Positions 1-37,800 of a stretch of 41,034 nucleotides of DNA are shown piece by piece. Each line of letters starts with the position of its first letter. Position 1 is the stretch's first letter. A model generated the notes under the pieces. It made no database searches, was not told where the DNA came from, and was given only the letters and a program-made list of their open reading frames with translations. A program made the translations under genes and the position numbers. This stretch comes from Actinomycetota bacterium (GTDB lineage: Bacteria > Actinomycetota > JAHEXW01 > JAGVPG01), in the NCBI GenBank assembly GCA_020052375.1, contig JAGVPG010000010.1:1-41034 (forward strand), in the 5' to 3' direction.

Positions 1-412
1 CATACAGCTGGAGGTAGTTGTTGGCTATCACCAGGGAGAACATGGCCGCTGTAAACAGGCATAAGGCGGCGTAATACCAGGAGAACCTCTTCTCTCCGTG
101 CATGTAGCCCAGGGAGTAGATCTGGACCATCAACGCCACCGTGGAGATGACTATCAGCATGACGGCCGCCAATGGATCTATCAGCAAGCCGACGCCTACA
201 TGGACGTTTCCGGTTATGAACCAGTCCCTGCTTATCTCAAGGGTCTTCCCACCCATCACCGTTATCAGGATCATGATTGAGTAGATAAAGGTAAACAGGA
301 TGGATCCGATACCAACGTACGAGCCTCTCCCCGGGAGTCTCTTCCCGAAGAAGACGATCAGTATGAACGCTATTAGCGGTAGTACGGGAATCAACCAGGC
401 ATATGAAAGCAT
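1..412 (-). CDS. nuoL: NADH-quinone oxidoreductase subunit L (NuoL), 5' part, cut by window edge
   Basis: Proton-pumping antiporter-like membrane subunit of respiratory complex I. The window holds only the first 137 codons; the gene runs off the left edge. I translated it from the reverse complement: it starts with ATG at 412, about 12 bases after a GGAGGG ribosome site, and begins MLSYAWLIPVLPLIAF. Three hydrophobic segments follow, then a stretch typical of NuoL (LIDPLAAVMLIVISTVA, then IYSLGYMHGEKRFSWYYA and LVIANNYLQLY) that precedes the conserved antiporter-like core. It lies 24 bases after nuoM in the same operon, so here M precedes L, the reverse of the usual L-M-N order. NuoN is not visible and could lie beyond the edge. 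MrpA or HyfB-like antiporters are related, but the context makes NuoL much the best call. Confidence 0.9.
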   Translation of the reverse strand, partial: MLSYAWLIPVLPLIAFILIVFFGKRLPGRGSYVGIGSILFTFIYSIMILITVMGGKTLEISRDWFITGNVHVGVGLLIDPLAAVMLIVISTVALMVQIYSLGYMHGEKRFSWYYAALCLFTAAMFSLVIANNYLQLY

Positions 413-436: not shown

Positions 437-1948
437 TTAAGTCACCGTTTTTATCAATGTGTTCACGGATTGGTTTACAAACATCAATAGTGATTCGGGA
501 TATATACCGACTATCAAAGTAAGGGCCATCAATGGGATGAACGTAAAGATCTCTCTGGGTGTCGCGTCCTTCAAATCGCCCAGCCGTTCCGGATACACTC
601 CCATAGCAACGCGTTGCAGCATCCACAAAAGATATGCCGCCGTAATGACGACGCCGGTCGAGCCGACCATCGCCCAGACTTTGACACTTCCAAGATATGA
701 TAAGATCACAGACCAGGTCGATCCGGAGTGAACGACAAAATTCGTTCCCATCGCCCCGACAAGCACCAGGAACTCAGCGACGAATCCGCTCATGCCCGGG
801 AGACCGAGCGAAGCGAAAGAGGCAAAACACAATATGGCCGCCAGTACCGGTATCTTGTTTAGAAGCCCGCCGAGTTCAGGGATCTGTCTGGTATGCGATC
901 TTTCATAAATATAACCTACGATCAGGAAGAGCATCGCCGTTATGCATCCGTGGCTGAACATCTGCATGACCGCGCCGTTAAGTCCCATCGCTGTCAGCGA
1001 TCCGATGCCGAGCATCACATATCCCATATGGCTGACGGACGAATAAGCGACCATCTTTTTCAAATCGGTCTGGATCATCGCGTTCAGAGCTCCGTAGATG
1101 ATATTGATAACACCTAAGATAGCGAGCACTAGAGCGAACTTGCGCGACGCGTGAGGCAGAGTGGGTAGTATGACCCGTATAAATCCGTATGCGCCCATCT
1201 TAAGGAGGATACCAGCCAGTAGCACACTGACCGCCGTCGGTGCTTCTACGTGCGCGTCCGGAAGCCATGTATGGAACGGGAAGATCGGGACCTTTACCGC
1301 AAACCCGGCGAAGAAACCCCAGAAGACAAGGTACTGGAACGCGACAGGATATCCGTGTTTGGCCAGAACGACCATGTCGAACGTATTGGCGCCGCCTTTG
1401 AAGTACAAAGCCAGGATACCCAGGAGCATAAACACGCTCCCTGCCAGTGTATATATAAAGAATTTGATGGCCGCGTATTCACGCCGCTCGCCACCCCATA
1501 TGCCTATCAGGAAATACATCGGAAGCAGGACGAGTTCCCAGAACACATAGAAAAGGACGTAATCCAAAGCGACGAATACGCCGAGCATGCCGACTTCAAG
1601 AAGCAGAAGGAGAGCGAAATAACCCTTTGGTTTTAACGATATATTCCATGAAGCGACAAGGGCAAGCACTGATAGAAGCGACGCCAGGAACACCATCGGG
1701 AGGCTTAGGCCGTCTACGCCCATGTAGTAGGAGGCGCCTACTGTCTTGCTCCAGATGAGCTTGTCGATGAACTGCATGCCTCCGCCCGGCTTGAAACTAA
1801 CGACTACGTACGTGCTCAAAGCGAGCGAGATCAACGTGGCGACCAGTCCGATCTGCTTCATCAACTTTGCGTTTTCTTTCTTTACAAACAGGATCAGCAA
1901 AGATCCGATAAGTGGTGTAAAGACTATGGCCGTAAGAATCCCCTTCAT
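437..1948 (-). CDS. nuoM: NADH-quinone oxidoreductase subunit M (NuoM)
   Basis: Antiporter-like, proton-translocating membrane subunit of complex I, 503 residues, the normal length. The protein is almost entirely transmembrane helices. Family landmarks are visible: FWELVLLPMYFLIG with the conserved glutamate at residue 138, AVKVPIFPFHTWLPDAH with the conserved lysine at 219, a second lysine at 250, and the MVAYSSVSHMGYVMLG segment. The ATG start at 1948 follows an AGGAGGG ribosome site by a few bases. The gene lies 32 bases after nuoK and 24 bases before nuoL, inside the nuo operon. Related MrpD and NdhD-type subunits share these motifs; the adjoining nuoA/H/J/K decides for complex I. Confidence 0.96.
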   Translation of the reverse strand: MKGILTAIVFTPLIGSLLILFVKKENAKLMKQIGLVATLISLALSTYVVVSFKPGGGMQFIDKLIWSKTVGASYYMGVDGLSLPMVFLASLLSVLALVASWNISLKPKGYFALLLLLEVGMLGVFVALDYVLFYVFWELVLLPMYFLIGIWGGERREYAAIKFFIYTLAGSVFMLLGILALYFKGGANTFDMVVLAKHGYPVAFQYLVFWGFFAGFAVKVPIFPFHTWLPDAHVEAPTAVSVLLAGILLKMGAYGFIRVILPTLPHASRKFALVLAILGVINIIYGALNAMIQTDLKKMVAYSSVSHMGYVMLGIGSLTAMGLNGAVMQMFSHGCITAMLFLIVGYIYERSHTRQIPELGGLLNKIPVLAAILCFASFASLGLPGMSGFVAEFLVLVGAMGTNFVVHSGSTWSVILSYLGSVKVWAMVGSTGVVITAAYLLWMLQRVAMGVYPERLGDLKDATPREIFTFIPLMALTLIVGIYPESLLMFVNQSVNTLIKTVT

Positions 1949-1980: not shown

Positions 1981-2289
1981 CTACCACTTGAGCATGTCTA
2001 TCTCGTCGACATTAAGCGTCTGTTTTCCTCTATATATTGTCACGATGATAGCTAGTCCTACGCCGATCTCCGCCGCGCCTGAAGCCATGGCGAATATGGT
2101 GTACATCAATCCGACGATCGTGTGCGGAGTGATATATCTCGAGAATGCAACGAAGTTTACATTGACAGCGTTAAGCATCAACTCTACCGACAACAGTAAT
2201 AATATCGCGTTCCGCCGGGCAAGTACGCCGTACATGCCTATTGAGAACAGGATCGCGGAGAATATGACGAAATAATTGAGCGGTATCAT
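1981..2289 (-). CDS. nuoK: NADH-quinone oxidoreductase subunit K (NuoK)
   Basis: Small membrane subunit of complex I, 102 residues, three predicted transmembrane helices. Typical features are the buried glutamates in LLLLSVELMLNAVN (helix 2) and in ASGAAEIGVGLAIIV (helix 3), which belong to the proton path of the family. A longer reading frame extends upstream, but I chose the ATG at 2289 because it overlaps the nuoJ stop codon as ATGA and its protein starts exactly where NuoK proteins start. An AGGAGG-like stretch at the end of nuoJ serves as ribosome site. Translationally coupled to nuoJ. Confidence 0.95.
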   Translation of the reverse strand: MIPLNYFVIFSAILFSIGMYGVLARRNAILLLLSVELMLNAVNVNFVAFSRYITPHTIVGLMYTIFAMASGAAEIGVGLAIIVTIYRGKQTLNVDEIDMLKW

Positions 2290-2789
2290 TCTTCCTCCTT
2301 GCTTGCCAGAACGAGGACGCCGATCAGCGCAACGAGAAGGAGCACGGATATCATCTCGAACGGCAATACATACTTGGTAAAGAGTATCTTTCCGAACTTG
2401 GCCACCGTTAGGGGCGTCAATTTCTCTTGAGAAGTCGCCCACACCTTGGGCACCAGGACGACTAGAAGGACGGATAAGAAAACACCCGCCGTCGCGAATG
2501 CCATCCCCTTCTGCTGGTTATCCAGAGCAATCTCCATGCCTGCCTTCGGTTTTACCAGCATAAGCGCGAACAATACCATCGTCGTTACAGCTCCCGCATA
2601 TATGAGGACCTGCATTGCCGCGATAAACTGCGCGTATAAAAGTATATAGATACCGCTGACACTGGATAGGGCAAGCAGATGGACGAACACGGCATGCATT
2701 ATGTTCCTGGTGGTCACGATATATACGGCAGCCGACAGGATAAGAGAAGCCAGGATCAGAAATGCTATGGTCGGACCATTGACGGTCAT
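2286..2789 (-). CDS. nuoJ: NADH-quinone oxidoreductase subunit J (NuoJ)
   Basis: Membrane subunit of complex I, 167 residues with about five hydrophobic helices. The conserved helix-3 region with a pi-bulge motif is recognisable as QVLIYAGAVTTMVLFALML. The start is the ATG at 2789, which overlaps the stop codon of nuoH as ATGA; the longer upstream frame would run back into nuoH. The C-terminus ends in KEEE and the stop overlaps nuoK. Both overlaps indicate tight translational coupling H-J-K. NuoI, which normally separates H from J, is absent here because its sequence lies in the fusion gene upstream of nuoA. Confidence 0.94.
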   Translation of the reverse strand: MTVNGPTIAFLILASLILSAAVYIVTTRNIMHAVFVHLLALSSVSGIYILLYAQFIAAMQVLIYAGAVTTMVLFALMLVKPKAGMEIALDNQQKGMAFATAGVFLSVLLVVLVPKVWATSQEKLTPLTVAKFGKILFTKYVLPFEMISVLLLVALIGVLVLASKEEE

Positions 2790-3817
2790 CTGCGCGTCCT
2801 CCCCAGGTATATAAGCGTGGCGATAACGATGGTAAACTCCGTGACCGCCAAGGCAACCGGCCATATATCCGGCAGTAATATGATGATGCTGGCCGTCAAT
2901 ACAATATTAAGTAAAGACGCCGGCAACAGTACTTTCCATCCGAGATCCATAAGCTGGTCAGGTCTGACGCGCGGAAATGTGATCCGGATCCACGCCAGGA
3001 TAAAGAAAAGGACGTAGACCTTCAGTAGAAACCAGACCGGTGGCGGAAGGATCGGTCCCTTAAACCCACCTAAGAACAGTAAAGCCGTCATCGAACATAA
3101 GATGATCAGACTCACATATTCAGCCAGATAGAACAGCGCCCATCTCATGCCGCTATATTCTATATGATAACCGGCAATGATCTCGGACTCCGCGTGAGGG
3201 ATATCGAAAGGCGATCTGGAAAGCTCGGCTTCCGCCGCTATGACAAAAACCAGAAATCCGATCGGTTGGATAAAAGCATTCGGAACTACCTGCTTGTTCA
3301 CGATCGTTATCAGGTTCAGCGAACTTGCCATCATCGCTACACCCGCGATCGTCAGGCCAAAGGGCAGTTCGTAAGAAAGCAACTGGCCAGCCGCACGGAA
3401 CGCCCCTAGTAATGAGTACTTGTTAAACGACGACCAACCGGCCATTATCATACCGACGAATGTGAAAGCCGACAGGGCGATGATATAGAACGCTCCTATA
3501 TCAAGATTGATTACCACTAGCGTCGCGCTTAGCGGAATGGCGCCGATCGCCATGAAAGCCGGAACGAATACAACAAAAGGCGCGACTTTGAAGATCAACC
3601 TGTCCGACGCACCGGGGACGGTATCCTCTTTGTTCATCAGCTTGAGGACATCCGCGAACGGCTGAAGGACACCATGGAACTTTCCGGTCTCTATAGGGCC
3701 ATACCGGTCCATGATATGAGCGAATATCTTAAGCTCGCACCAGATGAACACTATGATATGAGTCAGAACAAGTACTATGACCAGTAACGCGAGTCCTATA
3801 CCTATCAGTAAACCCAT
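2786..3817 (-). CDS. nuoH: NADH-quinone oxidoreductase subunit H (NuoH)
   Basis: Membrane subunit that contacts the hydrophilic arm and forms much of the quinone chamber; 343 residues, normal size. Visible family motifs are RYGPIETGKFHGVLQPFADVLKL near the N-terminus, the loop SRSPFDIPHAESEIIAGYHI with the conserved acidic residues, and EYSGMRWALFYLAEY. The gene lies one base after nuoA and overlaps nuoJ at its end. The protein continues past the usual C-terminal arginine-rich segment (RITFPRVRPDQLMDLGWK) with two more hydrophobic helices, as in normal NuoH. The formate hydrogenlyase subunit HycD is the main alternative and is less likely in this context. Confidence 0.95.
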   Translation of the reverse strand: MGLLIGIGLALLVIVLVLTHIIVFIWCELKIFAHIMDRYGPIETGKFHGVLQPFADVLKLMNKEDTVPGASDRLIFKVAPFVVFVPAFMAIGAIPLSATLVVINLDIGAFYIIALSAFTFVGMIMAGWSSFNKYSLLGAFRAAGQLLSYELPFGLTIAGVAMMASSLNLITIVNKQVVPNAFIQPIGFLVFVIAAEAELSRSPFDIPHAESEIIAGYHIEYSGMRWALFYLAEYVSLIILCSMTALLFLGGFKGPILPPPVWFLLKVYVLFFILAWIRITFPRVRPDQLMDLGWKVLLPASLLNIVLTASIIILLPDIWPVALAVTEFTIVIATLIYLGRTRR

Positions 3818-3818
3818 A

Positions 3819-4184
3819 TCAAACCCATTTCAACACGCCTTTCTTCCAGGCATAGACCAGCCCGAGAAGAAGAATGAATATAAAGACCAGCATCTCTATA
3901 AGAGACGTGATCCCGAGTTCTCTGAATACGGTAGCCCATGGATATAAAAACGCGATTTCAACGTCGAAGATCAAAAAGAGTAAGGCGAACACATAGAAGC
4001 GGACATTGAATTGAGACCAGGCGCCACCGAACGGCACCATTCCGCATTCATATGGTTCGAGCTTGACCGGGTTCTCCTTTTTCGGTCTGACGACCGCCGA
4101 TACGCCCAACAGTATAGCAACAAAACAGAACGCCACCACTGCGAACATCGCCACATTAAGATACGCGCTCAGGTATTCACTCAC
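3819..4184 (-). CDS. nuoA: NADH-quinone oxidoreductase subunit A (NuoA)
   Basis: Small membrane subunit of complex I, 121 residues, three hydrophobic helices. The family signature is clear: KLEPYECGMVPFGGAW with the conserved cysteine on the loop, RFYVFALLFLIFDVEIAFLYPW on helix 2, and a C-terminal AWKKGVLKWV. The open frame extends 44 codons upstream, but those residues are the out-of-frame end of the previous gene. I chose the GTG at 4184, which overlaps the stop of the fusion gene as GTGA and puts the first helix at the usual place. NuoA normally comes first in nuo operons; here it follows nuoB, C, D and the fusion gene. Confidence 0.93.
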   Translation of the reverse strand: MSEYLSAYLNVAMFAVVAFCFVAILLGVSAVVRPKKENPVKLEPYECGMVPFGGAWSQFNVRFYVFALLFLIFDVEIAFLYPWATVFRELGITSLIEMLVFIFILLLGLVYAWKKGVLKWV

Positions 4185-6064
4185 TGGTCGACTCCTAACA
4201 TCCTGTTTTTCCCATAGACGGCGCCTTTTCTCGTATATGTCCCGAGTCCAAAGTCCGGAGTGTGAGATAAAGTAGTCGTCGGACACATCTCGACACATAT
4301 CTTGCAGAACTGGCATCTTCCGTAATCGAGTTCATACACGTCGACCATCCTCTCACCGTTCTGAGAATCCCTGACGGTTATGGCCCTCGTCGGACAGTTC
4401 TTCTCACAAATGTGACAGGCGATGCATCTTTGCGTCATGCATGAAAGACACCTCTCCGCTTGTTTGATCGCAATAGTCCGCGGATAGGTCTTTTCGACCT
4501 CGTCGAAGTTGGTTATCCTTTCCTTGGGATCGAGTTTTTCGGGATGCTCCCTGTTCGGGAGATCTTCATAACGATTCTTCATAGTATCTTCCCGGTTAAA
4601 CGCGTTCGACCAGTATTCACTAAGCTGACCACCGTTCAAGTGACGGTCGATACCCATAGCTGCTTTCCGGGCTGTGCCGATCGCATCGATTGCTATAGAC
4701 GGCCCTGTAACAGCATCACCGGCAGCAAAGATATTTTCCCGGTTAGTTCTGCCGGTTTCAGGATCGACCACTATCGCATCGCGTTTATTACAGTCCAAAC
4801 CCGCCTCTTTGAGCCAGTCCGTTTCCGGAGTCCGGCTTATGGCGGGTATCACCGTGTCGACATCGATCGTATATTCGCTTCCTTTGATCTGTACCGGACG
4901 CCTCCTACCGCTTTCGTCAGGAGGCCCGAGTTCCATTCTTAAAAGCTCCAGTTGCTTGACATAGTCACGACCAAGGACACGGACAGGAGCTACCAGGAAC
5001 TCTACCTTTACGCCTTCTTCCAGAGCGTCTTCGACCTCCGCGTCTAAAGCCGGCATCTCTTTGCGCGTCCTTCTATATAATATAGTGACTTTATCGGCGC
5101 CCATCCGGAGCGCGACTCTCGCGCAATCTATCGCGGTATTTCCGCCGCCTACGATAGCGACCTTTTTACCCATACCTATATCTTGTCCCAGACGGTCTCG
5201 CGCCAGAAATACCTCGCCCGGTATCACGCCTATAAGGTGTTCGCCTTCGATCTCCAGTTCCATCGGTTCATGCGCGCCTATACCAAGAAAAACAGCCGCG
5301 AAGTCTTGTTTTTTCAGATCATCAAGGGTAAGGCCGCCTGGGCCGAAAGGTGTATTGAGCTGTATCTTGACGCCGAGTCTCTTCAAGTTCTCGACTTCTT
5401 TCTCGACGATGGATTCAGGCAGACGGTATTCGGGTATGCCGACTGTCAGCATACCTCCCACTTTTGGAAAACGGTCGAAGACCGTCACATCATATCCGCA
5501 TTTGGCCAGATAGAACGCAGCGCTCATGCCCGCGGGACCGGCACCTATGACTGCGACCTTCTTACCTTTTCTTATCTTTGGCGGCGTATAGACTTTATTA
5601 AGCCTCTCGGCGCTTACGTTATCTGCCATAAAGCGCTTTATCCAGCAGATCGTGACTGGTTCGTCTTCCTCGCCGCGCCGGCAGGCATCTTCGCAAGGGT
5701 GAGGACATACGCGGCCGATGATCGCGGGTATCGGGTTTTTCTCCAGATGTAGCTCAAAGGCGTCATCATATCTACCCGCGGCTACCAGGCCTATGTAACC
5801 TCTTGCGTCCACATTTGCCGGGCAAGCCACCTGGCAGGGCGGCATGACATCCGAAACAAGGACGTCAGGCACGGCCTCGTCTATCGCGCCTTTCATGATA
5901 AGGCGGCCGCGAGACAGGGCCGGGATCGGCAAACGCTCACGCGGATACTGTACGGTGACACTTCTCTTAAGCAAGGTCCTCATCGTGACATACATGCTTT
6001 TCAGAAGACCCAAACCGTATATAGGGATAGAACCGTTGGTCTGCACTTTCGTTTTTGTTTCCAT
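4181..6064 (-). CDS. NuoI split by an inserted GltD-type FAD/NAD(P)H oxidoreductase (fusion protein)
   Basis: 627 residues in place of nuoI (about 160-180 usually). Residues 1-54 match the NuoI N-terminus: an amphipathic segment GLLKSMYVTMRTLLKR, then VTVQYPRERLP and SRGR. Residues about 70-140 are a GltD-type N-terminal Fe-S domain, with cysteines 77, 81, 120, 124 and 128. Residues about 166-480 are a two-Rossmann flavoprotein: GAGPAG at 174-179 for FAD and GGGNTA at 306-311 for the nicotinamide nucleotide, followed by LYRR (330-333), which in GltD proteins favours NADPH. GDAVTGP at 449-455 closes the FAD site. Residues about 547-620 return to NuoI, with two 4Fe-4S motifs (Cys 547/550/553/557 and 584/587/590/594) and a NuoI-like tail. 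Inference: the protein brings electrons from NAD(P)H directly to the complex I iron-sulfur chain and substitutes for NuoEFG. The gene sits between nuoD (10 bases) and nuoA (4-base overlap). The domain calls are firm; the function is inferred. Confidence 0.9.
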   Translation of the reverse strand: METKTKVQTNGSIPIYGLGLLKSMYVTMRTLLKRSVTVQYPRERLPIPALSRGRLIMKGAIDEAVPDVLVSDVMPPCQVACPANVDARGYIGLVAAGRYDDAFELHLEKNPIPAIIGRVCPHPCEDACRRGEEDEPVTICWIKRFMADNVSAERLNKVYTPPKIRKGKKVAVIGAGPAGMSAAFYLAKCGYDVTVFDRFPKVGGMLTVGIPEYRLPESIVEKEVENLKRLGVKIQLNTPFGPGGLTLDDLKKQDFAAVFLGIGAHEPMELEIEGEHLIGVIPGEVFLARDRLGQDIGMGKKVAIVGGGNTAIDCARVALRMGADKVTILYRRTRKEMPALDAEVEDALEEGVKVEFLVAPVRVLGRDYVKQLELLRMELGPPDESGRRRPVQIKGSEYTIDVDTVIPAISRTPETDWLKEAGLDCNKRDAIVVDPETGRTNRENIFAAGDAVTGPSIAIDAIGTARKAAMGIDRHLNGGQLSEYWSNAFNREDTMKNRYEDLPNREHPEKLDPKERITNFDEVEKTYPRTIAIKQAERCLSCMTQRCIACHICEKNCPTRAITVRDSQNGERMVDVYELDYGRCQFCKICVEMCPTTTLSHTPDFGLGTYTRKGAVYGKNRMLGVDQ

Positions 6065-6074
6065 TATCTCCAGC

Positions 6075-7202
6075 TCATCTGTCGATACAACCGAGTACGA
6101 TGTCTACACTTGCCAGTACGGCGACCACATCGGGAAGTACCATCCCTTCGACTACGCGGCTGCCGTACATAAGGTTTGTATAAGAAGGCGAACGCAGTTT
6201 CAGTCTATATGGTTTCTCACCGCCGTCAGAAACCAGATATACTCCGAACTCACCTTTTGTATTCTCTGTCCTTATATAGACTTCACCTTTTGGAAGTCTG
6301 ATCTTCCTGGGTACTTTAGCCCTGATCGGACCCCCCGGCAGTCCCTCGATTGCTTGTTTTATGATCTTCGCCGATTCCCTCATCTCGTTCATCCGCACTT
6401 TAAAGCGGTCGAAGGCATCTCCGTTCTTGCCGACCGGGATATCGAAATCAAACAACGGGTAGACGGAATAGGGCTCGAGTTTCCGGAGATCGATGGGAAC
6501 GCCGGTCGACCTCAAGAACGGTCCGCTGCAGCCGTAGTTGATAGCTTCTTCCTTATCGAGGACACCGACGCCGATGGTCCTGGCTCTGAAGACTTCATTG
6601 TCTTCCAGGAGCATCTCGTATTCATCGACTCTGCCCGGTATCCAATCAGCCAGTTTCTTCACATCGGCCTCGAAATCATCGTGGACTTCTTCTCTTACAC
6701 CGCCATACGTAAGATAGTGATAATGGACCCGGGCGCCTGTGACTCTTTCCATCACACGCTGGATCAAGTCCCGGTCGCGAAAAGAATACATGAATGCCGT
6801 GCCGAATAGACCTACATCGTTTGCGAACGACCCAACCCATATCAGGTGATTCAGGATCCTGTTGAGTTCAAGCATGATGACCCGGAGAAATTCGGCTCTT
6901 TCCGGTACCTTGATCTCCGCGAGCTTCTCGACAGCCATCACATAAGACAGTTCGTTGTTTATGTTCGAGACATAATCCGTCCTGTCAAAGTGGGGCGTGA
7001 TCTGCATATAGGTCAAGTCTTCGCACAGTTTTTCAACGCCTCTGTGCAGATATCCTATATACGGGACTGCCTTTATGATCCTTTCACCGTCAAGAGTCGC
7101 GACGATCCTGAGAACACCGTGAGTCGCCGGGTGATGAGGGCCGATGTTGAGGTCCATCGTGTCTGTTTGTAAGAGCTGCTCGTCGTGTTTGATCTCTTCC
7201 AT
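6075..7202 (-). CDS. nuoD: NADH-quinone oxidoreductase subunit D (NuoD)
   Basis: Hydrophilic subunit that, with NuoB, forms the quinone-reducing site; evolved from the [NiFe] hydrogenase large subunit. 375 residues, normal for a free NuoD (not fused to NuoC). Motifs: LNIGPHHPATHGVLR with the quinone-site histidines, GYLHRGVEKLCED, GSFANDVG, the SYTNL and VVAVLASVDIVLGCIDR C-terminus ending in the conserved aspartate-arginine. The nickel-binding cysteines of hydrogenases are absent, as expected. The ATG start shares one base with the nuoC stop (TGATG). It is followed 10 bases later by the NuoI/GltD fusion. Confidence 0.96.
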   Translation of the reverse strand: MEEIKHDEQLLQTDTMDLNIGPHHPATHGVLRIVATLDGERIIKAVPYIGYLHRGVEKLCEDLTYMQITPHFDRTDYVSNINNELSYVMAVEKLAEIKVPERAEFLRVIMLELNRILNHLIWVGSFANDVGLFGTAFMYSFRDRDLIQRVMERVTGARVHYHYLTYGGVREEVHDDFEADVKKLADWIPGRVDEYEMLLEDNEVFRARTIGVGVLDKEEAINYGCSGPFLRSTGVPIDLRKLEPYSVYPLFDFDIPVGKNGDAFDRFKVRMNEMRESAKIIKQAIEGLPGGPIRAKVPRKIRLPKGEVYIRTENTKGEFGVYLVSDGGEKPYRLKLRSPSYTNLMYGSRVVEGMVLPDVVAVLASVDIVLGCIDR

Positions 7203-7696
7203 CAGTCTTTCTTATACTCCAGTTTAAAGTCCTTCCGTAACGGATAACCTTCGAAGTCGTCGGTCAAGAGAAGTCTCCTTGGGTCAGGGTGTCCTTCAAA
7301 AGTAATACCGAACAGCTCGGCAGTTTCGCGTTCATGCCAGTCGACGCCCATCCATACACTCGTCACGGACGGCAAGACCGGCGCTTCCCTTTTAATACGC
7401 GTTTTCAATGTCAATCTGCACTTATGATCTATCGAGTATATGTGATGCACCACTTCAAGTTCTTTGCCATAGTCGACTCCGCTTGTGCACATGGGATAAT
7501 CGAATCCGAGTTCTTTCTTTAAATATTCCGCGATCGATAGCAAGCCGTCTTTATCGACGAGGAGCATAAGCTCTCCGTCTGCGATATCGCTTGACTTGAT
7601 GAAGCGTCCGAAGGCGCCTTTGAGAGTGCGTTCGATCTCTCCCAGGTGGACGTCCTGTTTTATTTTTGCTTGTTTGTGATCATTATCAGTGTTCAT
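7202..7696 (-). CDS. nuoC: NADH-quinone oxidoreductase subunit C (NuoC)
   Basis: Structural subunit of the complex I hydrophilic arm (30-kDa family), 164 residues, unfused. The family signature is seen in [43 protein letters not shown], of which DWHERE.ELFGI is the most diagnostic part. The ATG at 7696 lies inside the end of nuoB (11-base overlap) and the stop shares a base with nuoD, so B, C and D are translationally coupled. The first 20 residues are polar and poorly conserved. Confidence 0.95.
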
Positions 7697-8159
7697 GACC
7701 TGCTATCTTCTCTCTTAGCATTATGATCCCGTCTATCAACGCTTCCGGGCGCGGTGGACAACCGGGGACATATACGTCCACCGGTATGATCTTATCAACA
7801 CCTTGTACGACTGAATAAGAATCCGCGTACGGACCGCCACCTATTGCACAAGATCCCATAGCTAACACCCACTTAGGATCCGCCATCTGTTCGTAAAGTC
7901 TTAGCACTACAGGCGCCATCTTCTTTGTAACAGTACCGGAGATTATCATGAGATCCGATTGACGGGGAGACGCGGGCAGGGGAAGAACACCGAAACGATT
8001 CGCATCGTAGTGAGGTGCGTAAGTCGACATCATCTCAATAGCGCAGCAAGCAAGGCCAAAGGTCAGTGGCCATAATGATGACTTCTGCGCCCAGTGGATC
8101 AGCTTGTCGGCGTTAGTAAAAACTATATTGTTTGTGTTATATTTCTCAACTAAGCCCAA
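7686..8159 (-). CDS. nuoB: NADH-quinone oxidoreductase subunit B (NuoB), first gene of the operon
   Basis: Carries the terminal 4Fe-4S cluster N2 that reduces quinone. 157 residues. The cluster ligands are visible: the tandem cysteines C38-C39 in [11 protein letters not shown]104 in AMGSCAIGG and C134 in [11 protein letters not shown]. The start is a TTG at 8159 (GGAAGG lies about 9 bases upstream); no in-frame ATG precedes the conserved region at a sensible distance. It is the first nuo gene here because galT, upstream, is separated by 110 bases that contain a promoter-like sequence. nuoA does not precede it, unlike most bacterial nuo operons. Confidence 0.94.
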
Positions 8160-10410: not shown

Positions 10411-11262
10411 TTGCAGCAAGAGAGCATAAATAAAGCAAAACAACTGGTAAGTGACCTTAAGATAATATATACGGATGTTGACGGTACGATGGTAGGTCCG
10501 GGTGGTTCCATCTTCCGGGCCGCTGATGGTAGTCTGACCATGGAAGCCGCGAATATCATCGTAAAAGCGATCACATCAGGTATAGACATAGTACCGGTCA
10601 GTGGACGTAACCAGGATCAGCTGAGAGAAAACGTTCGCGTTCTCGGACTTCAGAACTTTATCGCCGAACTAGGCGCGGAGATCATCTATAACCAGGGAGA
10701 ACGGATCATACATACGGCTGAAGAGATCGAGACGCACGGTAAGACTGTCTACGAAACGATCAAGGATCGTAGTATAACGCAAAAGCTGTTGCAGCATTTC
10801 AGTGGGCGGCTTGAATATCATACTCCTTGGTCGGATGAAAGACGTTTCCATTCACATCTTTTTAGAGGGTTCGTAAGCGTCAACGAGGTAAACTCCTTTT
10901 TAGCAGCCAACGGCTCATCGGATCTAAAGCTTGTCGACAACGGCCGGATCGGCCGGCGGGGCGATATGCCACTCGAAGAAGTACATGCTTACCACCTTTT
11001 GCCGAAATCAGTCAGTAAAGCTAAAGCGGTTCAGCGTGACCAGATCGAAAGGAACATAAAGATCGAGCAGACGATCGCAATCGGAGACTCATGGGCAGAC
11101 TTGCCACTGGCAGAGGAAGTCGGCGCCTTTTTTCTGGTCGCTAACGGTGTAAAAGAAGACCCCACACTGGCTGACGGCATAAAAGCTTACGACAACGCCT
11201 TCGTTACGGAAAACGAAAAGACCCTCGGCTGGTCCGAAGCCGTCTCCCTCTTCCTCGAATAA
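10411..11262 (+). CDS. HAD-family glucosyl/mannosyl-3-phosphoglycerate phosphatase
   Basis: Predicted to remove the phosphate from glucosyl-3-phosphoglycerate, giving glucosylglycerate. 283 residues of the Cof-type HAD family: motif I is DVDGT at residues 22-26 (nucleophile D22), motif II lies in PVSGRN, a cap domain spans about residues 95-195, and motif IV is GDSWADLP at about 225-232. The start is TTG at 10411, one base after the gpgS stop, so the two genes are translated together. The pairing with gpgS is the main reason for the substrate call. By sequence alone it could be assigned to mannosyl-3-phosphoglycerate phosphatase or another sugar phosphatase. No convincing terminator was seen in the 73 bases after it. 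Confidence 0.8.
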   Translation: MQQESINKAKQLVSDLKIIYTDVDGTMVGPGGSIFRAADGSLTMEAANIIVKAITSGIDIVPVSGRNQDQLRENVRVLGLQNFIAELGAEIIYNQGERIIHTAEEIETHGKTVYETIKDRSITQKLLQHFSGRLEYHTPWSDERRFHSHLFRGFVSVNEVNSFLAANGSSDLKLVDNGRIGRRGDMPLEEVHAYHLLPKSVSKAKAVQRDQIERNIKIEQTIAIGDSWADLPLAEEVGAFFLVANGVKEDPTLADGIKAYDNAFVTENEKTLGWSEAVSLFLE

Positions 11263-11335
11263 AAAGTGAGTACTTTCGAGATTTAAGGACTTTTTCTCAC
11301 GATTTTATAATGATAGAACCCTTAAGCCATGTCTA

Positions 11336-12004
11336 TTATGCACAAACATATAAGAAACTTAATGATTGATTGTTATATCTACGGCTGTCAAATCCTGCGA
11401 GTATAACTACTCCAAATTGATTCTCAACCCCTGCTAATGGTTCCTGACCTTTAACGTCTATTCCAAAATAGATGGGATCAGCAAGACCTGGGCGTTTGAG
11501 AGTAAACGTTAAACTACAATTCACTTTGAATGAACCTTCTTTACTATTGCAGTAAACGACTAATTTCCCACTCTGTAAAGCATTATCAACAGAGATAGAA
11601 ATATTTTTCTCAGATGCCTTCTCTTTCGGAATACTACTAAACTTTAATAGTTCATCAAAATGTACTACTTGGATTGTTGCAAGATGCTCACCTTGAAACT
11701 CACTTAGTGGCTTTATGCTAAGAGGTCCAGCAACATTCTCTCTATCGCACGAAACATGAACTTGACCAGACTGATGGATAGAGATTTTCGGCACTTTGTT
11801 TGACCTATGTTGCTGTTTGAAGTTGAATGTTTGCTTAAGTTCTTCTTCCATGAAAAAACGGGTTCCATAAAAGAATTCACCTTTTACTCCATATGGGAAT
11901 ATGTATAAGCTTGCATCTCTTCCGCTAAATGCAAATTTACATAGTTTTTTCAGAATGTTTTTATGCTTAACAAATATCCGGGCTTCTCTAATGTTGCTTG
12001 ACAT
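11336..12004 (-). CDS. Uncharacterised protein of the TcmP island
   Basis: 222 residues; I do not recognise a family. There is no signal peptide or membrane segment. The N-terminal third is basic (ARIFVKHKNILKKLCKFAF) and holds GRDASLYIFPYGVKGEFFYG; the rest looks like beta-strand-rich sequence with alternating hydrophobic residues. The ATG at 12004 has only a weak ribosome site. The gene is AT-richer than the chromosome on either side, like the two genes upstream of it. It lies 80 bases after the radical-SAM-like gene on the same strand, so it is probably the third gene of that unit. A role with the other two is inferred only from position. Confidence 0.6.
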   Translation of the reverse strand: MSSNIREARIFVKHKNILKKLCKFAFSGRDASLYIFPYGVKGEFFYGTRFFMEEELKQTFNFKQQHRSNKVPKISIHQSGQVHVSCDRENVAGPLSIKPLSEFQGEHLATIQVVHFDELLKFSSIPKEKASEKNISISVDNALQSGKLVVYCNSKEGSFKVNCSLTFTLKRPGLADPIYFGIDVKGQEPLAGVENQFGVVILAGFDSRRYNNQSLSFLYVCA

Positions 12005-12084
12005 AATGATCCAATCATATAAATGAACTACTCTTTGATATCTCTTTAGGTGGGCTGATTCAGATTCTCGAGAGCCTTTTATTG

Positions 12085-12906
12085 TTAGCTGACTAAAGCT
12101 AACTGCGTGCTGTCGTTCTTGGGTTTTGTTCGACTAAGAATCGTTCCGTTCTTAATGTGATAATCTATGCCGTTTCTCTCGCAGAAACTTATCACTTTCT
12201 CTGCTTCTGACTCATAGAAGTCTGTGTATTCTCGATAGCTATTAGCATGCTTGCTGTAATTCCATTTGCCGAAAACGATCTTGTCGACAAAAGATATCTC
12301 ATCAAGTATCGCATCAATATTCTGCTCTTTTATATTAGGTGTCGGATATGGTTCCATGCTTACCCATGTTCTACACCCTGCTAGATGAAGCTTCTTTAGT
12401 GCCTCGATTCTTTCTTGTATCGGTGCTGCAAACGGCTCATAGTGTCTCCGAAATGACTCGGCGAGTGATACTATTGTGGACCCATATTCGTTATTTCGAT
12501 ATAGGTCGTGATCTGCGAGCTTAGCCGGGTATATTCCTTTTGAGATCAGAACCACTTTTACGTCATTCTGATTAAGACGAGCAAGGATTTGCAGACTTAG
12601 CTTTTCGATTTCTTCATTCTTGTACATGAATGGATCCGTACTGAAACACATAAACACATAGTCGATCTTATGCTTCAATCTCGGTATTTCCTTATCTAAG
12701 AGCTCCAGAGCATTGCTTACAATTCTCGGTTTAATCCAATCTTGGTATCCGCCAATTCGACCACACCGCTTTTTAAGCATCATGGCGTAGCATGGATATG
12801 TACAACCATGTGAACAACCCTCAACATGGTTTAATCCATAGTCAGCATATTCGACTTCGCTTTTGTACAGAAGTGTTTTCCGAAATAAAAGGTCTTGCTC
12901 ACTCAT
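12085..12906 (-). CDS. Radical-SAM-like three-Cys-motif protein, partner of TcmP
   Basis: 273 residues from the ATG at 12906, chosen because it overlaps the tcmP stop as ATGA; a GTG six codons earlier is possible. The N-terminal NHVEGCSHGCTYPCYAMM holds cysteines 31, 35 and 39 with spacing CX3CX3C, one residue longer than the CX3CX2C of classical radical SAM enzymes. The following sequence has the alternating strand/helix pattern of a TIM-barrel (YVFMCFSTDPFMY, VKVVLISKG, RTWVSMEPYPTPN, DKIVFGKWNYS). This resembles the spore photolyase-like and DUF5131 (phage Gp37/Gp68) proteins that are known to travel with TcmP. It probably binds an iron-sulfur cluster; the substrate is unknown. AT-rich codon use suggests acquisition by transfer. 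Confidence 0.72.
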   Translation of the reverse strand: MSEQDLLFRKTLLYKSEVEYADYGLNHVEGCSHGCTYPCYAMMLKKRCGRIGGYQDWIKPRIVSNALELLDKEIPRLKHKIDYVFMCFSTDPFMYKNEEIEKLSLQILARLNQNDVKVVLISKGIYPAKLADHDLYRNNEYGSTIVSLAESFRRHYEPFAAPIQERIEALKKLHLAGCRTWVSMEPYPTPNIKEQNIDAILDEISFVDKIVFGKWNYSKHANSYREYTDFYESEAEKVISFCERNGIDYHIKNGTILSRTKPKNDSTQLALVS

Positions 12907-13988
12907 CGCATTCTCTCTTTGCACAATTCATTAAACATGATTCGATCATTACCGCGTAGTCCTTTTCTTGTTTTACTGGTAATTCTAGTAATTCTTATGT
13001 TTGTTCCCTCCATCTTTTGCAGTGTTTTTCGTATTTCCCCCTCTGTATAGGGAATTTCATCAATAACCTCATCAATTAAATCTTGAAATGAGATTAACTT
13101 ACTGCAATATCTATCAACAAGATACTTCTTGATATCTTTTTCTTTGTATGATGAAAGATCTGACAAAGACATCTGATTACTTCTATTACCCAGATATGCT
13201 AAACGATTGTAGTTTAGCTCTGCGAAGACCGATTTCATAATAGCACACCCTAAAGAAGAATTAGTTAGATGAAAAAGATAGTAGAACGTCCTCTTTCTCC
13301 CAGGAAACTCTATAGGATATGGGTAAACATAGCGAACATTAGCGCATTCTTTGAGTTGATTCCTATATAGTGACACCAAACTTTTCTCCCTTTCAAATCC
13401 ATGAAGTTTATTCAACTCCTGCCAAGGGCATTTTCCAAAATAGTCGTCAAAAACCGCCGTTAGCTTTGGATCAGAAAGAAACTCATTAATCCTAGTAAAC
13501 ATGAAGTTCAGTACGATTTCGGTTTTATCTTGTTCCATAATCCGCCTAACTGTATCTATGCGCACTCCTTTGAAACCAAACGGATCAATAAGCATAAAGG
13601 TTGGGGATAAATTCCCAAGCTTGTCTAGCACAGTATTGATGACGCTATCAAAATCACCCTCTATGTACAGTGGTTTAGTTTCGCATTTAAGACTAGCTAA
13701 GATCTGTTGTATGTTCCTAAGATTTGAAGGATCACGATCAATAAACATAAAGGCTATTGATCGCCTTTTTGGTTTATGGTTCTGTTCAAAGTTTAAGACC
13801 GCTCGAACTGGTGATCCATAATGGATGTCTCTGTTCTCATCAGTATATGCTCCAATACCACTAAACCCATCAACATAATTCAGGTTGTTCCACTTTCCGA
13901 CTATCGTAAAGTACAAGTCTAAGTATTTAGACACGACTGAGTGTTTCATTTTTGTCTGTTCCTCATATTCCCATGTTTCAAAAACCAT
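12903..13988 (-). CDS. tcmP: Three-Cys-motif partner protein TcmP
   Basis: 361 residues. The N-terminal two thirds look like a Rossmann methyltransferase fold: YVDGFSGIGAY at residues 38-48 (SAM-binding-like loop), FMFIDRDPSN at about 80-89, and FMLIDPFGFKG at 131-141, where the DPFG resembles the catalytic motif of nucleic-acid methyltransferases. The C-terminal part (about 290-361) reads as a small winged-helix-like basic domain. These traits match the TcmP family, whose members sit beside a three-cysteine protein; the molecular activity is not established to my knowledge. The gene starts at ATG 13988 and is coupled to its partner by a 4-base overlap. It opens the AT-rich island. Confidence 0.82.
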   Translation of the reverse strand: MVFETWEYEEQTKMKHSVVSKYLDLYFTIVGKWNNLNYVDGFSGIGAYTDENRDIHYGSPVRAVLNFEQNHKPKRRSIAFMFIDRDPSNLRNIQQILASLKCETKPLYIEGDFDSVINTVLDKLGNLSPTFMLIDPFGFKGVRIDTVRRIMEQDKTEIVLNFMFTRINEFLSDPKLTAVFDDYFGKCPWQELNKLHGFEREKSLVSLYRNQLKECANVRYVYPYPIEFPGRKRTFYYLFHLTNSSLGCAIMKSVFAELNYNRLAYLGNRSNQMSLSDLSSYKEKDIKKYLVDRYCSKLISFQDLIDEVIDEIPYTEGEIRKTLQKMEGTNIRITRITSKTRKGLRGNDRIMFNELCKERMR

Positions 13989-14106
13989 GTTCTCTATCTA
14001 CTCTCCCTGTCTTTAGTCTGTCTTTTTGACAACGTAACAAACACATGTTCGGTTGTCAATGTAGCAGCAAATAATGGTGGTGTTCTTTTCTTTTATGATA
14101 CAAGAC

Positions 14107-31855: not shown

Positions 31856-34800
31856 CTAATGAACCTTAATATTCCCCTGGCTTAATGTTCCTTCTGCTAA
31901 ATAGAATTGCTGTCCGGTCGGATCATAGATAGTGAGTTTGAACAGATCATGCTCTTTACCCGGCTCTGCAACATCTGATACTTCCATTTTGAAACTTGAA
32001 CCGCCTATGCCATCTACTGTGCAAAGCCCTGACAAAGTAGCAGACTGACCGGAGAAGACCAGCCACGAGAAAGAGGTGGAATGGATATTCGTGCCTGTTC
32101 CGTGGTCATTAAACTGGAACTCTCCTGACGGAACGGTTTCTCCATACTTGTATTGTGCATTAAACCCGAAGTTGCACTTGTCAGTGTTACGTATGATATA
32201 ACCTCCTCCAGTTACCTTCTCACCGGCAAACGGGTCATAGACGACGAACCAGGACGGAAGAGATGTGGAAGCAAGATATGAATCATCTTCTACAAATGTG
32301 GCCGACAGCGAGTATATACCCTGCGGTTGACTGATCGCAAGGAAGGCGTTGGCAATTCCTTCCGTGTCTGTGACTGCCGATACGGATTGTGAACCCAAAT
32401 TGAAGATGACAGACTTACCAGAGATCGGGTTTCCGTTGTCTTTGTCTGTTAGCTTGGCACTTAAAAGAGGTGTCCCGACAAGAGATGAAAGATGATCTCC
32501 TAAGTATGTTATATCCGTATCTTCCTTTGTGATCTCAAAACCTTGAGATGTACTGCTTTCTCTGTATTGTGTATCCCCTGCAAAGGATGCTGTCAGATTA
32601 TATGTCCCTGCTGGTTGAGAAAGAAGAATTGTAGCGGTGGCCTTGCCGGTCGTATCCGTCTGGGCAGATGTGCTTTGGTTACCAAGACTAAAGACAACTG
32701 CTTTCCCGCTCACAGGCCCTTGTGCATATGTAATATAAGCACTTACAGAAACGGTATCCGAATACTGACCAGTTGTCTGACACGAGGTATCGAAAGATAC
32801 AGTTGTTGAATACCTGACAAACACATGGACAGAAGCAGTCGACGAAGTTCTGTTTCCGGCTTGATCCTGGGAGGTTGCAGATAGAGTGTGATATCCTTCC
32901 GGTATAGTAATATCCGTCTGCCAACTTCCCAGTAGATCGGATTGAGCAGTTGAAACAACCATGCCGTCCAACGATACCTCAACTGAAGAATTCGGCTCCG
33001 CAATTCCAGAAACTGAAACAGGATTCGTACATACCGACTGATCAGAAGGTGAAGAGATCACTGGAGGTTCTGGTGGAACCGTATCGACTTTTAGCTCCAG
33101 GTTCCTTTCATCCTCTTTATTTCCGGCTTTGTCTATAGAATAGTAATAGAGCGTATGGATGCCTTCCGGTGGCGATATTGACCCTGTATATTGATTCTCA
33201 GGTGCTTGGTCCCACTTAAAGTAGATTGTATCCAAACCCGATCCACCCTGATTGTCATTTGCAGTGAGAGTAAGTGTGGGAATCGTTTTATACCAGTTGT
33301 TTTGGCCATCGGGAGATGTGCTCAAAGAGGCTTCTGTCTGCGGTTTTATGCTATCTATTCTAAAGTTTATAGTCTTTGTTGTCTCAACTCTTCCGGTTGT
33401 GTCGACCGAGCGATAAAATACCGTAGTCTCTCCTTCTTTAGAGATTGTTATCGGATTCGCATATGTGTTCCAGGTGGTATTGTTGTCGATGCTGTATTCG
33501 ATCCGATCTATGTCTTCCGACTGTCCGTTGGCAGACATTGTAACTGTAACGGGAGATCTGTACCAGCCGTTTTCACCGTCTGGGTTGGTTGGAGTGAGAG
33601 ATGCATCAGATTTGTATATGGGAATCAAAAGAGACGTTTGGTTGTTACTCTCGTTAAACTCCTGGATCGCGTTACCAGAATCTACCACAACATAGATTGT
33701 ATGCTGCCCGTAGAACGTATTTGTGTCGACAAGGACTTGGGCTTGCGCTTCACCGTTAGCTATTACTTGCGGCAGGACAACATCTCCCCCTACTTGCTGA
33801 GCACCTTGAGCTGGATCACCGTCGAAGAACCTTACAACCACGTTATGGGCATCGGTCTTCCCAGAATTATGGATGGTTGCATTGAGAGGCACGGCTGATG
33901 CATCTGGCGCGTTAGCTGTATCTAGATCGATGTCTGTGTATGTAAGGTAAAGATCGGGAAGACTGCTTCCGTACACGAACTCCGTCTGTTTCTCAGATAA
34001 CAATCCTCCGGAAACTAACCTAGCCGTAAGTTTATGGCTACCCGGTACGACTCCCAGCACAGACTTTGATATCTTTGTATACCCCGCAAGTTCTACCTGT
34101 TCATCGCTAACGACTGTACTGTCAATCAGGAGTTGAAGTTGGGATATTCCGTAACCGTAGGCATCAAGGTCAGCCGTAACCGGCTCGTCCGGCGTAGCAT
34201 AGTCCACTTTGTTAGTAGAAAGATCGACTAATAACGGGATGTTAACATCTATTATTTCTCGTCCAGACGTCAAAGCGGATTTTGAACCCGCCTTGTATAC
34301 TCCATATACCAGCCTATGGATTCCGGGTTTATCGGTACTAAACTGCCCGCTCAATGCCAACGCGTTTTCTCCGATGTTTATGATCTGCTCTCGATCCATA
34401 ATCTTTTGGTAGTTTCCGTCTTCGTCGCAAAGCCAGCATGAAACACGTCCATCAAATTGCTTATCAGACTCCAGCTTCAGGTTCAGTTCTACCGTGTCCG
34501 AGCTGTTGTATGAATCCCTATCGAGCTCGGCATCAACAACCTTGACGGTTAGTCCTTTGATGTCTATAGGTATGCTGCCCGACGAATCTCCCAGTCTGTA
34601 GTCGACCGTGTATGTGCCGCTTGGAAGGTCATCGGGTGCGACAAAACTGAAGTAATCTGTAGTGCTTAGATCAAAACTGGCTGTGTATCCAGGTGCGTCG
34701 ACTTCGAGTGTCCCGGTCTGTCCGCCTGCGTCAACCGACACGTTGACCGTTTCACCACCGGCGTAGACCGGCTTGTCTGGAACAAGAGAGATGCCGTCTC

Positions 34801-37800
34801 CTCGCCCTGTGATATAAGTCGTATTCAGATACATCGCACGTCCGCTCTTTGTATAGACGCCGTATGACAAGAGCTTTCGGCCGGTCTCGACAGGAACGTC
34901 AAAGGTAACCGTCCTGCTCGACAAGGAGAAGCTCTGGGTCTGTTCGGTCTCACCATATTGAACCTTGGCAAAGACATCCAAGGGTTCTATCCCGCTGTCG
35001 TTGTTTACGATCATCGTTAAGGTTGCAGTCTCTCCCGTGTTATATGACTGCCCGTCTAAAGATGCATCGACTGACAGTTTTATGCCTTGGACGTGGAAGC
35101 TGAAGTCATAAGGAACTCCGTTGATCTTGAGGCATGCGGGATAGTCTTTTTCTTCCAAGTCATCCGGAATCGGGACGTTAAAGGTCACGCTGCCTGTCTC
35201 GTTCGGCAGAAGGCTCTTTGATTGTTCCTCCGTCCAGACACCCGGCACATCCAAAACGAGAGTCGCGGTCCCGAACTGCATTCCGGTGTTTTGGATATCG
35301 AAAGACATTGTGGCCGTCTGCCCTAGTGTATACGTCGAGCCTTGGGGTGAGGATCCAATCTCAAACGTCGGCGCCTTAACCTCTATCTGCTGAACTTCTT
35401 CCTTGATAAGAAGACCACTCGAGGCATATACACCAACACTTATGTCATATAATCCGGGGCTCACGCCGGACAGATTCAACCGAAACTGGTCGGCAGAGCT
35501 TCCCCCTCGCGCAAGCTGCACCGAGGCTTCCTGAACGTCGAACAAGGATGAGACTCGTACGTTCCCGTTGAAATCATTGATTCCCATGTTCTTTGTGACA
35601 ACGTCAACAAGCAGGTCGTCTTGATCGCCTGAACTTATACTGTATATCAAGGATATGTCATCCTTTTTTCCAACGGAGAAATGTTTCTCTCCGCCACCGA
35701 AAGGCGAATCGTAGGTAAGTGTATACTCGCCCTTGGCTAGGAAACCGAGATCGATTTGATCCGTGACGAGACCGCCCACTCCGACAGAACAGGGTTTGCT
35801 TGTCAGTTGAGTTCCGTTTAGGTTGAAAGAAATATCAAATTCCGTGTCGAGTGAGCCAGTATTTCTAACTGAGAACGGAACAGAAACCTGGCCCTCCTCG
35901 TATTCGGGGTTCGCGCTAATGTCGATCCCGACTGATTCACCCAATTCGACCTGTTTTGTAAGATCGAGATTCAGGTCACCCGACAGACACACGGTGAAAG
36001 AAGTGCCGCTGTTTGTCGACGCCTGTTTTTGGATGATGCGTGTTTCACCAGGCGGAATAACAAGTGTCTCGTCAAGATCCAAGAACAAGCAGTAAGAACT
36101 GACTTCTGCATCGCTCTTTCCCGTATTCTTTAGAGTCAACGTCACATCGAACGGACCCCGGCCGACAACCGACGGACAGTCGAGAGTCGCCTCGACAATC
36201 GGTGCCGATACCTGCCCCAAATCCGCTAGGTGAACGCCGGAGAAGTAGCCGTCGATCGTGAAATCGCTCGACGGCGCAACTGATGTGGCAACGTAAGATC
36301 TTGTCTCACCAGAGTTTAGAATGTCGACCGATTGGCTGAAGACCAGGTTGTTATTAAGATTGATCGATATGGTCTTTCCTATCAAAGGCTGGTCGGACGT
36401 GTTCGTGATCTCCCCGGAGACTACGATAGACTCTGAAGGACGGTACACTTTCTTGTTCATGCTCATCGTCATAAGTGTTCCCGCCTGGAAGATGTAGAAC
36501 GGGTATTCGTCTTGAGAGATGGTCTGTCCTGTGTTTGAGGTGAGTGTCGCCTGTAGATACAGCTTCCCTGTACTCGACAGACTAGAGACTGTATCGCTAA
36601 TACTCTGGGACTCTCCGGTTGCCATATTTAAAACCGAAGCGCTTTCCCAGAGGGTACTTCGTCCACCGGATCCCGACCTGAACTTCTGAATCCTGTTGTT
36701 CCAAGTATCGGCTACATATATATTGCCGTTGTTGTCGACGTGGACTCCCCATGGTTTGTTGAACTGACCGTCCCCGCTTCCTGTGCCACCGAAAGACGAT
36801 TTCAAACTTCCGTTCTTGTCATATACTTTGATCGCAGAGCCGTTGTCTCCGAAGGCGACGAAGAGCTGGCCTTGGTTGTCTGCCGAGATGTCGTAGGGAC
36901 CTTGATTCTGACCGGTATACCACATGGTGACGAAGTTGCCTTCGGAGTCGAACTTCTGGATGTTGTTGTATGACGCGGACCAGTTGTCGACGTCTGCGAC
37001 GTAGATAAATCCTTCGCTGTCTGCCGCTACCCCCATAGGATACATGAAACTTCCCGGACCTGTTCCGTAACTTCCCCACGTTTTTATGAAATTGCCCTGC
37101 GAGTCGAACTTCTGGATGCGGGCATTTCCGGTATCCGCGATGTAAACAAATCCCGCTTGATCTATATCTATGTCGTATGGTTCCAAGAACTGCCCTTGCC
37201 CGCTTCCGGAAGATCCCCAGGAAAGAATGAAGTTACCTTGTGAGTCAAACTTCTGGATTCTTCGATTGTTGTAGTCGGTCACATAGACGTTTCTTTCTTC
37301 GTCACAGGCGATTCCGAAAGGAAAGTTGAACTTCCCGTTCGTAGATCCGGACCCGCCCCATTTGAGGACGAAATTGCCTTGGGAATCGAACTTCTGGATG
37401 AGGTTGTTGTAGTCAGTCGTATAGACGAACCCGTCTCTGTCTGTCGCAACGCGATGCGGGTTCAGGAAGTCACCATCTCTTATTCCGATGCTATTCCACT
37501 TTCTTAGGAAATCGCCGTCGGGGCTGAACTCTTGGATGCGTAAAAGCTGGTAGTCGGATGTTAGCACCTTTCCGAACTGATCACACGTGATGTCGATCAG
37601 ATATTGGAACTGGCCGTCTCCGTCACCGGGACTCCCCCAGCTTCTGATCAAATTTCCCTCGTTGTCGAACTTTGTGATTCCCGGGCTGACCGCCGCATAG
37701 ACCGCTTGCTGGTTATCTGTTGATATACTGTATGCTTTGTATGTTGTAGCCCAGCTCTTGACGTAGTTTCCGTAGAGATCAAACTTCTGAATCCTCGGAG

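Follow-up and report, generated by a model that had tools for sequence, protein, structure and literature searches.

A circularly permuted GltD-type flavoprotein built into the complex I subunit NuoI of anaerobic actinobacteria: a probable NADPH input module

Anaerobic actinobacteria from several families carry a complex I in which the NuoI subunit is fused to a flavoprotein that apparently replaces the three missing NADH-input subunits. The fusion was found in a 41,034-nucleotide stretch of an Actinomycetota draft genome (contig JAGVPG010000010.1), which we call the window. Judging from its sequence, the gene likely encodes a NuoI with a built-in, non-bifurcating NADPH dehydrogenase, which would take the place of NuoEFG in an otherwise ordinary complex I. 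Here, we describe the gene and its distribution, and then weigh the possible electron donors.

The fusion gene lies in a minus-strand cluster with the order nuoB-C-D-[I-GltD]-A-H-J-K-M-L. The cluster runs off the contig within nuoL, and the remainder of nuoL, followed by nuoN, is found at the start of another contig of the same genome (C25; L192). NuoB, C, D, H, A, J, K, and the antiporter subunits are thus all encoded together, as follows:

7686..8159, minus strand, nuoB (Oxidored_q6)
7202..7696, minus strand, nuoC (Complex1_30kDa)
6075..7202, minus strand, nuoD (Complex1_49kDa), the sole nuoD of the genome
4181..6064, minus strand, nuoI-gltD fusion gene (open reading frame, 627 aa, protein P0001)
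3819..4184, minus strand, nuoA (Oxidored_q4); the listed open reading frame starts at 4316, but a GTG start at 4184 is likelier
2786..3817, minus strand, nuoH (NADHdh)
2286..2864, minus strand, nuoJ (Oxidored_q3)
1981..2442, minus strand, nuoK (Oxidored_q2), with the true start probably inside the open reading frame
437..1948, minus strand, nuoM-type antiporter subunit (Proton_antipo_M)
2..412, minus strand, nuoL N-terminus, cut by the contig edge

P0001 consists of a NuoI N-terminus, a GltD/NfnB-type flavoprotein (about residues 71-543), and a NuoI bis-4Fe-4S C-terminus, in that order. The first-pass annotation had already read NuoI ends around a GltD-type insert at this position; Pfam, NCBIfam, and alignment results all bear this out. 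It gave no strand, which is minus (the plus strand at 4181-6064 has many stops). The GltD-type cysteines, the GAGPAG motif at the FAD site, and the GGGNTA motif at the NAD(P) site are also as it described them. The parts of the gene are the following:

5891..6064, minus strand, NuoI N-terminus (residues 1-58), with an amphipathic helix and a VQYP..RGR motif, by match to a standard NuoI (L154:7635-8150)
5606..5842, minus strand, Fer4_20 domain (residues 75-153; Pfam, 2.4e-22, from profile position 30), with two 4Fe-4S sites
4676..5563, minus strand, FAD/NAD(P)H oxidoreductase domain (residues 168-463; Pfam Pyr_redox_2, 9.5e-40), with GAGPAG and R214
4835..5170, minus strand, NAD(P)-binding sub-domain (about residues 299-410), with GGGNTA and YRR at 330-332, by alignment and column analysis
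4436..4588, minus strand, relocated GltD/NfnB N-terminal segment (residues 493-543), ERITNFDEV...RCLSC with C539 and C542, by BLASTP against the genome's own NfnB
4181..4435, minus strand, NuoI bis-4Fe-4S C-terminus (residues 544-627), clusters N6a/N6b (NCBIfam TIGR01971, 1e-24)

Both ends of P0001 can be traced to one and the same ordinary protein, a 172-aa NuoI from a relative: residues 15-52 correspond to its residues 14-51 (E 2e-9, 45% identity), and residues 544-614 correspond to its residues 63-135 (E 2e-7). The C-terminal part has two CxxCxxCxxxCP motifs for N6a/N6b and a NuoI-type tail, and it is matched by Pfam Fer4_7 (546-596, 5e-9) and by the NuoI model TIGR01971, whose alignment (544-622) reaches the model end. 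The insert brings the total TIGR01971 score under the family cut-off; the NuoI-GltD architecture has no NCBIfam model of its own, and the best models score under their cut-offs. The N-terminus has the membrane-associated helix and the YP..E...RG motif of NuoI. In the alignment of the fusions (A1), Y40, P41, R52, and G53 of the NuoI N-terminus are invariant, as are all of the Cys ligands. By column analysis, the Fer4_20 part contains C77, C81, C120, C124, C128, and a proposed ligand, K143. The AlphaFold model of P0001, which was based on an alignment of 12 sequences only, has pLDDT values of 30-60 in the Fe-S parts.

The flavoprotein is not simply an intact NfnB placed within NuoI. In BLASTP comparisons with the NfnB encoded elsewhere in the same genome, P0001 75-477 aligns with NfnB 61-486, while P0001 493-558 aligns with NfnB 5-68, i.e., the N-terminal segment of NfnB (R..NF.EV...EA.RCLxC) is on the C-terminal side in P0001. 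These alignments indicate that the NfnB/GltD fold is circularly permuted in the module. Among 73 related domains, eight have an N-terminal RCxxC and none of these eight has a C-terminal one; the C-terminal RCxxC is present in 64 of the 65 others, and the exception (L101) has a frame that stops short of the motif. Simple insertion is ruled out by the BLASTP result and this distribution. The relocated RC(L/M)xC (C539, C542) is invariant in the fusions and is located four residues ahead of C547, the first N6a cysteine. If the ligand pattern of dihydropyrimidine dehydrogenase applies to P0001, as we presume, C539 and C542 would complete the distal cluster together with C77 and C128. The best sequence and fold matches, the GltD-NuoG subunits found in NfnABC and StnABC, have the permuted form as well.

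The source genome (1.64 Mb, 95% complete) is a 35-contig draft, and an assembly error or a chance read-through could in principle join nuoI and gltD. We searched 297 genomes of Actinomycetota and then examined loci one by one. The assignment to this phylum agrees with the presence of WhiB in the co-phylum genomes; among 14 control genomes, WhiB gave a signal in Corynebacterium alone. The same N-GltD-C fusion is present in 18 genomes including that of the window (17 full-length, one cut by a contig end), which belong to eight Actinomycetota families (f68, f49, f53, f63, f45, f27, f18, and the window's f1), and one of these genomes, G131, is a single contig of 1.84 Mb. In addition, GC3 is even across the joins, and the source genome has no other NuoI. 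An assembly error, which the first-pass annotation had named as one way its reading could fail, is rejected by the recurrence in 17 other genomes, and we regard an artefact as having a negligible probability. In searches centred on two other phyla, with 300 genomes around Desulfosporosinus and 247 around a Deltaproteobacteria MAG, there was no fusion among the ~150 best matches listed.

All of the fusions are placed in nuo clusters. The f18 clusters have the order A B C D H [I-GltD] J K L M N, with the fusion exactly between nuoH and nuoJ, showing that it occupies the nuoI slot. NuoI was searched for in 14 genomes. In 11 of them, among which are both genomes that have a shortened form of the fusion (described below), there is no NuoI other than the fusion or this form; in the remaining three (G131, G164, and G250), a normal NuoI is encoded as well, in a second cluster of the ordinary 11-subunit kind.

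No nuoE, nuoF, or nuoG is present in the window, as had been pointed out, and the same is true of complex I-linked nuoEFG in the whole 1.64-Mb, 95%-complete genome, where the only NuoI match is the fusion itself. The genome has a single Complex1_51K (NuoF-like) gene, which adjoins the gene for a formate dehydrogenase alpha subunit and belongs to that enzyme. This NAD-linked alpha subunit (L103:6479-9166, minus strand) has one in-frame TGA (CARL-TGA-HAPTV), a probable selenocysteine codon. The NuoF-like genes of the fusion genomes are distant from the nuo clusters, and in 13 genomes checked, there was no NuoF gene adjoining the fusion-bearing cluster. The earlier proposal of a one-piece NAD(P)H input module in NuoI that replaces NuoEFG is well supported, and neither a separate nuoI nor a complex I nuoEFG was found elsewhere in the genome to contradict it.

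How the flavin would handle electrons is suggested by the ligand of the FAD-proximal cluster. In NfnB, this cluster has a Glu ligand that helps it to reach a low potential, while StnC has Lys170 in its place, and its FAD is non-bifurcating, with electrons passing linearly to the later clusters (PMC10482914). The corresponding column in the 17 full-length fusions has Lys in 10, His in seven, and Glu in none; seven of eight NfnB/GltD types, including the genome's own NfnB, have Glu. The residue in P0001 is Lys143, which an ungapped alignment places at position 170 of 9bov, the same number as the StnC ligand K170.

The first-pass annotation had also raised bifurcation between NAD(P)H and ferredoxin. 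In this alternative, the fusion is a bifurcating or confurcating entry in which NAD(P)H, ferredoxin, and quinone are coupled at the FAD, as in NfnB but with a quinone branch. The NfnB fold with 46% identity to the genome's own copy would fit this, and the organism uses ferredoxin, as seen from its POR and CODH/ACS genes. P0001 also keeps, as R214, the Arg equivalent to NfnB R201 and StnC R239; this Arg supports bifurcation in NfnB, but the non-bifurcating StnC keeps it as well (PMC10482914), and StnC combines the same ligand with the same permuted fold. Moreover, none of the 17 fusions has the low-potential Glu, each having Lys or His instead, and the nuo cluster in the window has no NfnA-like partner, while a true NfnAB pair with the Glu ligand is encoded separately on contig C7. 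Bifurcation is thus disfavored, and we consider it unlikely. Since Lys or His stands in place of Glu, and Lys is also the ligand in StnC, linear NADPH input is the preferred reading.

The ligand types coincide with two nucleotide motifs. All ten Lys-type fusions, including that of the window, have YRR after the second Rossmann strand, which is typical of 2'-phosphate (NADPH) binding in this flavoprotein family, and the seven His-type fusions have at the same position an LE pair, as expected for NADH. This suggests that the Lys-type fusions, including P0001, are specific for NADPH and that the His-type fusions are NADH-like.

The main reason for caution about the electron donor is a deletion in close relatives. 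We compared three genomes of the window's class: the source genome, G002, and G018. At the same cluster position, G018 (L115:2560-4068) and G002 (L116:5611-7119) have a 503-aa version that keeps the NuoI ends, Fer4_20, the FAD motifs, and all cluster Cys, while the NAD(P)-binding domain, which corresponds to about residues 280-410 in P0001, is cleanly missing. By comparison with P0001, these two genomes, which belong to the same order as the source genome, have lost only this domain, which shows that the scaffold can be of use even when NAD(P)H is not bound in cis. Their loss of the domain provides a ready-made natural comparison. It would also agree with a different reading, in which the true donor is a protein, either ferredoxin or another, that docks at the Fe-S clusters, with the flavoprotein as a docking platform or relic; ferredoxin is also the donor usually assumed for 11-subunit complexes (PMC11238625, PMC9686372). 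However, 17 fusions from eight families retain intact NAD(P) and FAD motifs, with the nucleotide motif in two types, and an unused site would decay, as it did in G002 and G018. For the full-length fusions, a protein donor of this kind is accordingly a doubtful explanation.

With NADPH as the donor, a hydride would pass from NADPH to FAD, and single electrons would continue from FAD to the two 4Fe-4S clusters of the Fer4_20 part, then to N6a and N6b in the NuoI part, to N2 of NuoB, and to (mena)quinone, which would drive ion pumping. The flavoprotein exit would be wired directly to N6a through the distal cluster at C539/C542, at the point where NuoG normally delivers electrons. We infer this cluster ligation, the direction of flow, and quinone as the acceptor; in the reverse direction, quinol could reduce NADP+ along the same path, powered by the ion-motive force.

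Parts of this arrangement are known from other enzymes. The best sequence and fold matches to the fusion are StnC and NfnA of StnABC and NfnABC (8oh5, 9bov, 9n5u; PMC10482914), in which a GltD-type FAD/NADPH module is likewise joined to a complex I-type Fe-S subunit, with the RCxxC segment C-terminal and Lys at the FAD-proximal cluster. However, those complexes are soluble, pass electrons to a HydBC-like bifurcating FMN module, have GltD joined to NuoG rather than NuoI, and lack a membrane arm and quinone site. P0001 has no NuoG/FdhF domain (Pfam), and StnAB partners are also absent, the neighboring genes being nuoD and nuoA. NfnB (NfnL) of NfnAB shares the GltD fold, two 4Fe-4S clusters, FAD, and an NADPH site with the fusion, but it has an N-terminal RCxxC, a Glu ligand, and an NfnA partner, and is a bifurcating enzyme outside complex I. 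The N-module (NuoEFG) of the 14-subunit complex I also passes pyridine-nucleotide electrons via Fe-S clusters into N6a, but with three subunits of an unrelated fold (FMN in NuoF). PRK12771 and PRK12814 GltD-like proteins, the best NCBIfam models although under their cut-offs, have a permuted GltD followed by bis-4Fe-4S; unlike the fusion, they lack the NuoI N-terminus, have a ferredoxin tail that is not of NuoI type, and lie outside nuo clusters.

The complex of the window resembles the 11-subunit complex I-like enzymes, such as that of Desulfitobacterium, which have NuoA-D and H-N without EFG; these, however, have an ordinary NuoI and no flavoprotein (PMC11238625). The donor of such complexes is a standing question, and one conserved electron-donating protein was sought without success, according to the account of Moparthi and Hagerhall 2011 given in PMC11238625. 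One group now appears to have the donor site covalently inside NuoI. This makes a testable prediction for this group of stripped-down complexes, that they use NADPH or NADH and not only ferredoxin, and it shows fusion to be a way in which complex I can exchange one input module for another.

The first-pass annotation knew of no description of this domain arrangement, and we found none in the literature searched, which was mostly that outside subscription journals. A survey of Nfn lists four fusion patterns, none with NuoI (PMC6405883). Thus, complex I and GltD-NuoG chimeras are known, while a flavoprotein inside the NuoI of complex I is undescribed in that literature. The fusion may nevertheless have a cultured representative. 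For Parvivirga hydrogeniphila Es71-Z0120 (Anaerosomatales), a pair of nuo loci was reported, and the subunits listed for one of them, NuoACDHJKLM, do not include NuoI; NuoEFG was stated to be missing, and ferredoxin was suggested as a donor (PMC9686372). Genome G164 in our set has a His-type fusion (L111), two nuoD loci, and a locus GC of 66.7%, against 67.65% reported for Es71-Z0120 (PMC9686372). Altogether, this suggests that the cultured relative probably carries the fusion, unrecognised.

In a tree of the flavoprotein domains, the Lys and His types do not form one clade. A single origin for all of the fusions is rejected (delta lnL 110, AU p = 0.001), while joining the two Lys-type groups as one is not (p = 0.55); the tree was made quickly, the branches of the His group in it are long, and the subgroups were named after the tree was seen. 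The result implies either that there were at least two captures of such a module by NuoI or that the module was replaced after one fusion. In the nuoBCDH tree, the complex of the window groups with those of G002 and G018 (100/100). We lean toward a class of complex I that uses a permuted StnC/NfnB-type flavoprotein in NuoI as its NAD(P)H input, captured at least twice (NADPH/Lys and NADH/His), with one lineage re-specialised by loss of the NAD(P) domain.

Other loci have permuted GltD domains in different surroundings. In two loci, L152:4.9-18.6 kb (Thermoleophilia UBA2241, G300:C16) and L153 (G301:C139), the nuo cluster is rearranged in another way. The first half of NuoI, containing a single CxxCxxCxxxCP, is joined to a NuoE domain. 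NuoF comes next, and after it an 833-aa protein that combines a NuoG-type 2Fe-2S domain, a permuted GltD, and a bis-4Fe-4S end that resembles the NuoI C-terminus. NuoI thus appears to be split over two chimeric genes. Two further loci, both of Thermoleophilia (L014:6600-10874 and L015:5495-10195), have very long open frames of 1425 and 1567 codons with a permuted GltD domain, and are further multi-domain members of this flavoprotein family. In the source genome, L105:986-6567 encodes CODH/ACS alpha/beta and gamma subunits and then a 629-aa PRK12771-like permuted GltD protein whose C-terminus gives an HdrA-like match; this may be a further flavoprotein for electron input in the Wood-Ljungdahl pathway.

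Elsewhere in the window, positions 31856-40948 (minus strand) encode a probable surface protein of 3030 aa that has an NHL beta-propeller, CARDB, and Ig-like repeats. The stretch from about 11000 to 14000 has a GC content of 0.37-0.40, compared to about 0.50, and contains a radical SAM gene (12085-12924) along with two genes that have no Pfam match; it is possibly acquired DNA.
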